Shown here piece after piece: positions 49,977-52,305 of a stretch of 64,000 bases of DNA. Positions within the stretch are counted from its first letter, which is position 1; each line of letters opens with the position of its first letter. The position numbers and the translations under genes were made by a program. Source of the stretch: Desertivirga xinjiangensis (GTDB lineage Bacteria; Bacteroidota; Bacteroidia; Sphingobacteriales; Sphingobacteriaceae); the NCBI RefSeq assembly GCF_024436435.1, contig NZ_JAFMZP010000003.1, positions 62,001 to 126,000 of the forward strand. The letters are read 5' to 3'. The notes under the pieces were generated by a model. That model was not told where the DNA came from. It saw only the letters and a program-made list of their open reading frames with translations, and made no database searches.

Positions 49977-50849
49977 TTAATGTAAAATTTTTAGTGACAA
50001 AGGTTTTATTGTAATAGAAATACTGCCGGTAATTTCTTTGGGCTCGCCATCAATATGGATAACTCTTGGTTTATCTGTTTCTATACGTATATCTTTGCCT
50101 TTTATTATCTCAATGTACCTCGACCTATCAGAAGTTTTACTAAAAAGCCGGTACCCCATAATTGGAAAATGATATAAAGGAAATGGTTTCACGATGCAAA
50201 CATCTAGCAGACCATCCATCAACGATGCAGTAGGAGAAATGTGAGCGTTGTTACCAAACTGAGATGAATTTGCAACACTGATCATAAAAGCACTTGTTTC
50301 AATAAGCTTCCCGTCAATTTTTATACGATAAAATTGGGGCCTATATGAAAAAACCTCGTAAAGTGTCGTTTTAACATAGCCCTTGAACCCCCTTTTTACC
50401 AAATTCGAGAATTTATGGCTTATGTGAGCATCAAAACCAATACCGCCAATATTGAAAAACTTCCATCTATCAAGGCAGGCGGTATCAATTAAAACGGAAT
50501 CTAACTTATTCAGCGACTTGATAGCCTCTGCATTGTTGAGCGAGATCTTTAATGAGCGCGCCAATCCGTTACCCGACCCACAGGGGATAATTCCCATAAA
50601 AAAGGGAGTACTCTCCAGTGCTGAACCAACCTCATTGATAGTACCGTCTCCTCCCACTGCAACCACAATCTCTATATTATTCGCTACAGCATCTCTGGCA
50701 AGCTCAAAAGCATGGCCGGGATATTCTGTGAACTTGTATTTCGGCCTGAACAGATTTAGATCAAGGTGTCTTTCAGCTAAGGCTGGAAAACCCGTTTTTG
50801 CTTTTCCTCCTGAGATCGGATTTATGATAAATAAAATATTTTTTCTCAC
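49977..50849 (-). CDS. Diacylglycerol kinase family lipid kinase (YegS/BmrU type)
   Basis: 290-residue cytoplasmic kinase with the NAD-kinase-like fold. The ATP-binding GGDGTINEVGSAL is at about 66-78, followed by IIPCGSGNGLARSL at about 88-100. The C-terminal domain contains HISPTASLMDGLLDVCIVKPF and VIHIDGEP. It phosphorylates a lipid such as diacylglycerol; specificity is unknown. Divergent from metK. Confidence 0.92.
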   Translation of the reverse strand: MRKNILFIINPISGGKAKTGFPALAERHLDLNLFRPKYKFTEYPGHAFELARDAVANNIEIVVAVGGDGTINEVGSALESTPFFMGIIPCGSGNGLARSLKISLNNAEAIKSLNKLDSVLIDTACLDRWKFFNIGGIGFDAHISHKFSNLVKRGFKGYVKTTLYEVFSYRPQFYRIKIDGKLIETSAFMISVANSSQFGNNAHISPTASLMDGLLDVCIVKPFPLYHFPIMGYRLFSKTSDRSRYIEIIKGKDIRIETDKPRVIHIDGEPKEITGSISITIKPLSLKILH

Positions 50850-50900
50850 TTCTGTATTCAGCGAATTAAGGTTAAATTTTTCATAATATAAAAAATATTG

Positions 50901-50908
50901 TACTTTCG
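50901..50908 (+). promoter_or_regulatory. Possible -7 element for metK
   Basis: TACTTTCG, one mismatch from TAnnTTTG, about eleven bases before the riboswitch-like element. A transcript from here would include the whole switch. Confidence 0.3.
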
Positions 50909-50918
50909 TCTACGCGAA

Positions 50919-50987
50919 AAGTGGATCGATTTGCTATGTTTCTGCAAAGAAACAAGATTGCAACCACGTAAAAAAAAGTGCTAATCC
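50919..50987 (+). promoter_or_regulatory. Probable SAM-II riboswitch in the metK leader
   Basis: The metK leader contains the SAM-II core in order: P1 arm AGTGG (50920), GATTTGC (50928), ATTGCAA (50957), P1 closing arm CCAC (50964), A-rich linker, and GTGCTAATC (50978). TTGCA can pair with TGC-AA across a bulged U at 50982, as in the known pseudoknot whose bulged U contacts SAM. Two departures weaken the call: three bases (ATC) between P1 and GATTT, and an extra small hairpin (GTTTC/GAAAC, 50938-50953) in loop 1. Placement in front of the SAM synthetase gene fits SAM feedback. The 64 bases to the metK start would need an alternative control of translation or elongation. Confidence 0.6.
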
Positions 50988-51051
50988 GATACTTATTTTT
51001 ACTCTCCCTTGCAATCAGGAATCTGCCTGTATTAATTTAAAAAAATAAAAT

Positions 51052-52305
51052 ATGCCTTATTTATTCACTTCTGAATCTGTATCTGAAGGCCATCCGGATA
51101 AGGTTGCCGACCAAATTTCAGATGCTTTAATTGACAATTTCCTGGCGTGGGATGCGGACTCCAAGGTAGCATGCGAAACCCTTGTAACAACCGGGCAGGT
51201 TATGCTGGCTGGTGAAGTTAAGTCAAGTACTTACCTTGACGTACAAAAAATAACCAGAGAGGTGATACGAAAAATTGGTTATACCAAGTCTGAATACATG
51301 TTCGAAGCAAACTCTTGTGGAATTTTATCGGCAATTCATGAGCAATCCGCTGATATTAACCAGGGGGTTGACCGCAAAGAAAAACAAGAGCAGGGGGCAG
51401 GCGATCAGGGAATGATGTTTGGTTACGCAACAAGCGAAACTGCTAATTATATGCCATTAGCATTAGACCTGGCACATAAAATCCTTATTGAGCTTGCAGC
51501 TTTACGTCGCGAAAATAAAGAAATAACTTATTTGCGACCTGATGCTAAATCACAGGTTACTATTGAGTATAGCGACGACCACAAGCCTTCAAGGATCGAT
51601 GCTATTGTTGTTTCTACCCAACATGACGAATTTGACACCGAAAGTAATATGCAGAAAAAGATCAGTGATGATATCATCAATATACTGATCCCACGGGTCA
51701 AAGCACTGCTCACGCCAGAACTTCAGCAGTTGTTTAACAGCGAAATAACCTACCATATCAATCCTACAGGTAAGTTTGTTATAGGCGGACCTCACGGCGA
51801 CACTGGCTTAACTGGAAGAAAGATCATCGTCGATACTTATGGGGGCAAAGGAGCGCACGGAGGAGGCGCATTTTCAGGAAAAGACCCTTCAAAAGTTGAC
51901 CGGTCGGCAGCTTATGCCACCCGTCACATCGCAAAAAATTTAGTGGCGGCTGGTGTTTGTGATGAAGTCCTTGTTCAGGTTTCTTATGCAATTGGTGTGA
52001 AAGATCCAATGGGTATTTATGTAAACACCTATGGATCATCAAAAGTAGACATGAACGATGGTGAAATAGCTAAGAAAGTGGCTGCTGTTTTTGATATGAC
52101 ACCATACGCTATAGAAACTCGGCTAAAATTACGGAATCCAATATATTCTGAAACAGCTGCTTATGGTCACATGGGTAGAGATCCTCAAACGGTAACCAAA
52201 GTTTTTGAAGGCGCAGGTGGCGAGAAAAAAGAAGTACAGGTGGAACTCTTCACGTGGGAAAAACTTGATTACGTCGACAAAGTAAAGCAAGCATTCAACA
52301 TTTAA
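51052..52305 (+). CDS. metK: S-adenosylmethionine synthetase
   Basis: 417-residue enzyme making SAM from methionine and ATP. Signature motifs are [15 protein letters not shown] near the start, [12 protein letters not shown] and [21 protein letters not shown] with [12 protein letters not shown]. All ATP, metal and methionine-binding regions are present. The ATG at 51052 gives [15 protein letters not shown]. Expression is probably controlled by the leader element described above. Confidence 0.98.

Follow-up and report, generated by a model that had tools for sequence, protein, structure and literature searches.

The leader of metK in the 64,000-nt stretch of DNA analyzed here (the window) raises two questions: whether it carries a riboswitch for S-adenosylmethionine (SAM), as an initial annotation had proposed, and how such an element could control the gene. 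How such riboswitches act in Bacteroidota is not obvious, since Shine-Dalgarno sequences are little used in this phylum and the leaders described below yielded no terminator. The parts of the locus are as follows.

50901-50908, + strand: Bacteroidota-type promoter box TACTTTCG, with one mismatch to TAnnTTTG.
50915-50994, + strand: SAM-II long-loop aptamer (RF01726, 43.6 bits, E = 1.7e-7; clade model R1, 68.8 bits).
50921-50924, + strand: P1 5' strand GUGG (GTGG in DNA), which pairs with 50964-50967.
50928-50933, + strand: L1 GAUUUG (GATTTG in DNA); GATTT was present in 44 of 44 aligned insert-bearing relatives.
50937-50954, + strand: inserted loop hairpin TGTTTCT-GCAA-AGAAACA, with the 7-bp stem UGUUUCU/AGAAACA and the loop GCAA (z = -5.48 against shuffles, p = 0.005).
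50956-50963, + strand: GATTGCAA (RNA GAUUGCAA), which by its letters holds the P2 5' strand UUGCA (50958-50962) and, in the fold of 50953-51020, also forms the 5' strand of a competing hairpin.
50964-50967, + strand: P1 3' strand CCAC, from the letters and the P1 parse.
50968-50979, + strand: A-rich L3 GTAAAAAAAAGT (RNA GUAAAAAAAAGU), from the letters; in the fold, also the inner strand of the competing hairpin.
50979-50984, + strand: UGCUAA, the P2 3' strand of the pseudoknot, with the bulged U at 50982; GCTAA was present in 44 of 44 aligned insert-bearing relatives.
50985-51051, + strand: 67-nt leader from the aptamer to the start codon, with more C than G and no intrinsic terminator or Shine-Dalgarno sequence found.
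50996-51002, + strand: anti-aptamer strand 1 (UUUUUAC), which in the minimum-energy folds pairs with the beginning of L3 (50968-50974).
51009-51016, + strand: anti-aptamer strand 2 (UUGCAAUC), which in the minimum-energy folds pairs without mismatch with GAUUGCAA at 50956-50963.
51052-52305, + strand: metK, S-adenosylmethionine synthetase, 417 aa, an open reading frame with MetK homologues.

All elements of the ordered SAM-II core that the initial annotation had listed were present in the letters, namely P1, L1, the loop hairpin, the two P2 strands and the A-rich loop. As had also been claimed, the letters let TTGCA and TGCTAA pair if one U is bulged out. By homology with the SAM-II crystal structure, L1 presumably lies in the groove of P2 and helps to bind SAM. 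The open reading frame at 51052-52305 is one that we take, from its sequence, to be metK, the gene for SAM synthetase.

The family of the element was determined by comparing the 211 bases at 50850-51060 with 4,227 Rfam families at lowered thresholds. The top match was RF01726, with a score of 43.6 bits against a gathering cut-off of 44 (E = 1.7e-7), and the eight remaining rows had E values of at least 0.73. The alignment covered all 60 model positions, with a loop stretch of 22 bases facing 3 in the model. At curated thresholds, no Rfam family matched anywhere in the 64-kb window. In the whole genome, the metK-leader element was the sole RF01726 match reported at E ≤ 0.001.

To the Rfam search we added a clade model, R1. 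It was made from 44 insert-bearing aptamers of the family's other genera, out of 60 such aptamers listed, with the window's own genus excluded. R1 placed the element at 50916-50992 with 68.8 bits (E = 1.6e-13, on a rough calibration), and the second-best match in the 64-kb window reached only E = 1.5. The covariance-score check thus gave a divided answer, 0.4 bits short of the cut-off with RF01726 and a clear match with R1, and the score of the clade model suggests that the inserted loop accounts for the shortfall. The two relatives from the same genus scored 44.1 and 46.2 bits against RF01726, both above the cut-off. The element at 50919-50987 is a real site, beyond chance. With metK lying downstream in 123 of 123 loci (described below), the proposal of a SAM-II riboswitch in front of this gene was borne out, and the evidence supports its assignment to the RF01726 long-loop form, as an element that would bind SAM.

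The family named initially was RF00521 (SAM_alpha), and this part of the proposal did not hold. RF00521 gave no row in the low-threshold scan of 50850-51060. It also had no match in the whole genome at E ≤ 0.001, a search of unproven sensitivity because the control genomes gave no match either. The window element shares with RF00521, the alpha-proteobacterial metA/metX type, the same H-type pseudoknot plan, and the GAUUU/UUGC/GCUAA core is common to both. The reported members of RF00521, so far as their descriptions were available, use terminators or an embedded Shine-Dalgarno sequence, however, and neither was found here. The likeness to RF01726 extends to the core letters, P1, the bulged-U pseudoknot, the phylum and the metK context. 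The window differs from that model in the 18-nt hairpin inserted between L1 and P2, and the model ends before the anti-aptamer strands. SAM-V has a pseudoknot and a binding site described as closely similar to those of SAM-II, but it acts translationally, with the Shine-Dalgarno sequence in P2a (available text of PMC6061858), and no SAM-V row appeared in the low-threshold scan.

An extended-loop SAM-II in this lineage had been put forward as a useful find. The motif is not new to the phylum: a 2005 paper describes it for the Bacteroides group (PMC1273637), one of 2007 does so for Bacteroidetes (PMC2258182), and a table published in 2010 has the entry "SAM-II long loops, Bacteroidetes, marine, RF01726" (Weinberg et al., PMC2864571), according to the available parts of these papers. 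No Bacteroides SAM-II data were found in the accessible text of PMC12121620 or PMC9026213, and no description of the expression platform of a Bacteroidota SAM-II was found in the accessible text of the open-licence PMC papers searched. The useful part of the locus is this expression platform, for which the competing strands supply a definite hypothesis that can be put to the test.

We evaluated how common the element is among relatives. RF01726 matches were found in 189 of 201 family genomes sampled (152 above the cut-off), in all three genomes of the genus (2 above) and in 45 of 296 genomes sampled across the phylum (40 above). The aptamer is a known class in its expected place, ordinary for the lineage. 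For comparison we assembled 123 loci: the window, the 30 best-scoring family matches, the 2 genus relatives, 30 of the best phylum matches and 60 hand-picked loci with long matches, spread over genera, among the family matches listed. This is a non-random sample, all of it preselected by the RF01726 search, and the element was located in each locus by a pattern requiring GCTAA, the pseudoknot core letters and CC.C. In all 123 loci a MetK homologue was present with the element upstream on the same strand. The distance from GCTAA to the metK start ranged from 55 to 170 nt, with a median of 77 nt, and was 67 nt in the window.

P1 was paired in all 122 parsed loci, as GUGG/CCAC in 95 and as GAGG/CCUC in 27, with a parser that demanded G[T/A/C]GG as the 5' strand, the 3' strand having to fit the CC.C of the location pattern; one insert-bearing locus (L112) was left out of the P1 and loop counts. 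The exchange of U-A for A-U is a two-sided change between lineages that, since it follows the lineage split, may have been a single event. Within the 44 aligned insert-bearing relatives, the four pairs did not vary. The pseudoknot core UUGC/GCUAA with its bulged U is present in the window; its letters are invariant and were demanded by the location pattern, and its covariation is therefore uninformative.

More was learned from the pairs flanking the core. One pair joins position -3, counted back from TTGCA, with position +4, counted on from GCTAA, and is equivalent to the SAM-II helix called P2a (available text of PMC6061858). It was formed in 89 of 123 loci versus 48.4 expected from the columns (UA in 46, GC in 34, AU in 5 and GU in 4). 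Its neighbor at -2/+3 was GC in 102 of 123 loci and, being nearly invariant, showed no excess. There was a slight excess at -4/+5 (58 versus 45.4 expected among the 123 loci) and none at -5/+6 (43 versus 45.0). In the window P2a is weak, with the letters A and G at -3/+4 unpaired. Compensatory change, which had been named as a check, was thus seen between lineages in P1 and as covariation in P2a, but not in P1 of the insert-bearing set.

Inserts of at least 12 nt were found in 63 of 122 parsed loci; they folded with p ≤ 0.05 in 31 and with p ≤ 0.5 in 62 of the 63, the conserved ATTTG being left inside the folded insert in some loci. Their sequences were mostly unrelated from genus to genus, and even the three members of the window's genus had three different insert stems, one of which (in L032) was not significant (p = 0.23). 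The loop hairpin is a lineage elaboration. In another family, f4 (L043, L046, L047, L049, L051, L052, L053, L055 and L056), extra bases, often forming a hairpin, were seen in L3 between P1 and GCUAA. As inserts elsewhere lie before P2, one and the same core has received inserts at two places.

The 12 family genomes without an RF01726 match comprised nine with an intact metK, whose products were near full-length relatives of the window's MetK (69-82% identity), one with a metK fragment and two with no MetK match. The clade model found no match in the nine aptamer-less metK loci (L144-L152). There the metK leader was much shorter, with the start about 20-70 nt after a TAnnTTTG-like box. In L147 the promoter and a GTGGAC remnant were kept, an arrangement resembling a deletion of the core. 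Such relatives without the element offer natural comparisons for the function of the switch.

TAnnTTTG is the consensus of the Bacteroidota promoter box. Within the 40 nt preceding P1, 109 of the 123 loci had an exact copy, at a distance of 9-18 nt in 108 of them (raw counts). The window and its two genus relatives were among the 14 loci without an exact copy. The box of the window, TACTTTCG, ends 12 nt before P1, which was the commonest spacing among the loci. Judged from the position and spacing of the box, the metK transcript probably begins at the aptamer, just before P1. On the other side of the box, about 50 bases away, is the start of a divergent gene at 49977-50849 (- strand), which we take to be diacylglycerol-kinase-like.

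The leader downstream of the aptamer can pair with the aptamer. Two helices can form in the window, one fully complementary between GAUUGCAA (50956-50963) and UUGCAAUC (51009-51016), the other between GUAAAAA (50968-50974) and UUUUUAC (50996-51002). The resulting hairpin at 50953-51020 had a folding energy of -16.1 kcal/mol (z = -4.46), with none of 200 shuffles as stable, and the minimum-energy fold of the full leader contained the same helices (z = -2.83, 1 of 200 shuffles as stable). In a duplex test, none of 200 shuffled leaders of the window matched the pairing with the P2 strand, and the pairing of L3 with the leader had a shuffle p of 0.03. The competing hairpin occupies the P2 5' strand and L3 and is thus incompatible with the SAM-bound pseudoknot; the folding programs used are blind to pseudoknots, and the energies given are those of pseudoknot-free folds.

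The same complementarity was in excess among the relatives. The top 5-letter word downstream of the aptamer was CAATC, found in 41 of 123 leaders versus 11.8 expected, and the top words of their lengths were GCAATC (19 of 123 versus 2.1) and TGCAATC (12 versus 0.4). TTTTTAC (27 of 123 versus 7.8) and CTTTAG (15 versus 4.1) were lower in the ranking. These words are reverse complements of the core sequences GATTGCA, GTAAAAA and CTAAAG. Words that do not complement the core were enriched as well, for example CTTCT (41 of 123 versus 16.9) and CTCTCC (12 of 123 versus 1.2).

When the core was folded with its leader and with shuffled leaders, the mean z was -1.53 over the 123 loci and -1.78 over genus means, with p ≤ 0.05 in 41 of 123. 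For the leader alone, the mean z against shuffles was about 0 and 11 of 27 genera were negative; the signal thus lies between the leader and the core. A test of leader-core duplexes only gave a genus mean z of -1.04 and p ≤ 0.05 in 36 of 123 loci, and in a first duplex test this level was reached by 33 of 123 loci for the P2 strand with the leader and by 18 of 123 for L3 with the leader. The signal was missing in L032, from the same genus as the window (p = 0.53), and in genera g15 and g44 (z about 0). Consensus folding of 14 genera with RNAalifold returned a core-leader hairpin in g1, g11, g20, g27 and g29 and another form in g13, and none in the remaining 8. A downstream strand that could compete with the aptamer looks conserved.

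SAM-II elements usually act as OFF switches for SAM and methionine genes (available text of PMC1273637), and by this usual logic we take the competing hairpin to be the ON state. Our main reading, to which we assign a probability of about 0.75, is that a SAM-II long-loop switch at the 5' end of metK represses the gene at high SAM, with the downstream strands as the ON partner. Transcription of metK would start just upstream of P1. In the presence of SAM, P1 and the P2 pseudoknot would close around the ligand. In its absence, UUUUUAC would invade L3 and UUGCAAUC would invade the 5' strand of P2, so that the long hairpin would form and the pseudoknot would be excluded. With SAM bound, both strands would be kept out, the C-rich leader would stay single-stranded, and the exposed leader could load Rho and turn metK off. 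Sequence and computation establish what the aptamer is, its position in front of metK, the pairings open to it and the statistical excess of complementarity among relatives; the binding of SAM, the OFF direction and the output step are what we infer.

Among the possible outputs, loading of Rho on the exposed C-rich leader is ranked first as a first guess, since the C > G profile suits Rho and no intrinsic terminator or occluded Shine-Dalgarno sequence was found. C exceeded G downstream of the aptamer in all 123 leaders, and still did so in 112 of them when only the last 67 nt were counted; the same was true of 49% of 139 control genes in about 460 kb of the window's genome (one genome, metK excluded). 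The C excess of the window's own leader was set aside as evidence when taken alone, since 14% of 140 control genes, a set that may include metK, reached it.

It is possible, and we think doubtful, that the output is instead translational: the U-rich strand, released when SAM binds, would pair with the A-rich tract before the AUG and hide the start, which would be free without SAM while L3 holds the strand. Folded without the aptamer, the leader of the window pairs UUAUUUUU (50993-51000) with AAAAAUAA (51041-51048) just before the AUG. The start site was also slightly more accessible when the core captured the leader, with a mean of 0.563 as opposed to 0.535 (paired t test over 123 loci that are not independent, p = 0.0015). 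This pairing is A-U only, however, and its fold did not stand out from shuffles (z = -0.83, 39 of 200 as stable). The change had the expected direction in just 73 of 123 leaders, and the window changed in the opposite one (0.61 versus 0.65). With so small a difference and such a fold, sequestration of the start codon was rejected as weak for a general output.

We consider it unlikely that the downstream complementarity is incidental, arising where an A-rich loop meets a U-rich leader and from shared ancestry, and that the aptamer works alone. As a check for lineage-specific co-evolution, leaders were exchanged between genera, with no significant effect overall (Wilcoxon p = 0.30); g13 alone gave a strong effect (median swap p = 0.018), g29 hinted at one (0.082), and several genera lacked the pairing. 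CAATC words were also found near the start in two aptamer-less leaders (L147 and L152, the latter even with TTGCAATC), which implies that an anti-aptamer strand can occur without an aptamer. Against this reading, composition was controlled for by shuffles that preserved dinucleotides, and the mean z was negative in 25 of 27 genera, the genera being related and not independent trials. The enrichment of core-complement words also argues against it, as does g13, where the leader partner sits around L3 and the P2 3' strand. There a double change from T-A to G-C retained the competing pair in 9 of 10 loci (5 + 4, with 1 mismatch; 8 loci counted by script and L089 read by eye).

A classical SAM-II arrangement of the alpha-proteobacterial kind, in which the SAM-bound pseudoknot blocks a Shine-Dalgarno sequence or controls an intrinsic terminator, is very improbable here. 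Both modes have been reported or predicted for SAM-II elsewhere (available parts of PMC9373788, PMC10907184 and PMC6061858), but in the window GCUAA ends 67 nt before the AUG, and a Shine-Dalgarno-like word was found in the last 20 nt of only 2 of 123 leaders. No intrinsic terminator was found at 50800-51200, nor in any of the 123 leaders by a scan that counted hairpins with loops of 3-8 nt and a minimum of 3 GC pairs, and this output was rejected. The most remote of the readings is one in which the ligand is SAH, or SAM and SAH equally: the homology of the element is to SAM-II, and in each of the 123 loci the gene encodes the enzyme that makes SAM.

The main reading, competition between the downstream strands and the SAM-bound aptamer, might tentatively be extended beyond the window. 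Bacteroidota metK SAM-II switches could perhaps share an expression platform consisting of a downstream strand complementary to the core, without a terminator or a Shine-Dalgarno sequence, and probably with Rho acting on the C-rich leader. In such a platform the strand may conceivably be aimed at the P2 5' strand, at L3 or at the P2 3' strand, depending on the lineage, a suggestion that we regard as speculative. In two loci of genus g16 (L070 and L074), about 20 nt downstream of L3 and the P2 3' strand lies a stretch of 12 bases complementary to them, fully so in L070, with a few U residues after it. This arrangement resembles a long-loop terminator and falls outside the 3-8 nt loop limit of the terminator scan.
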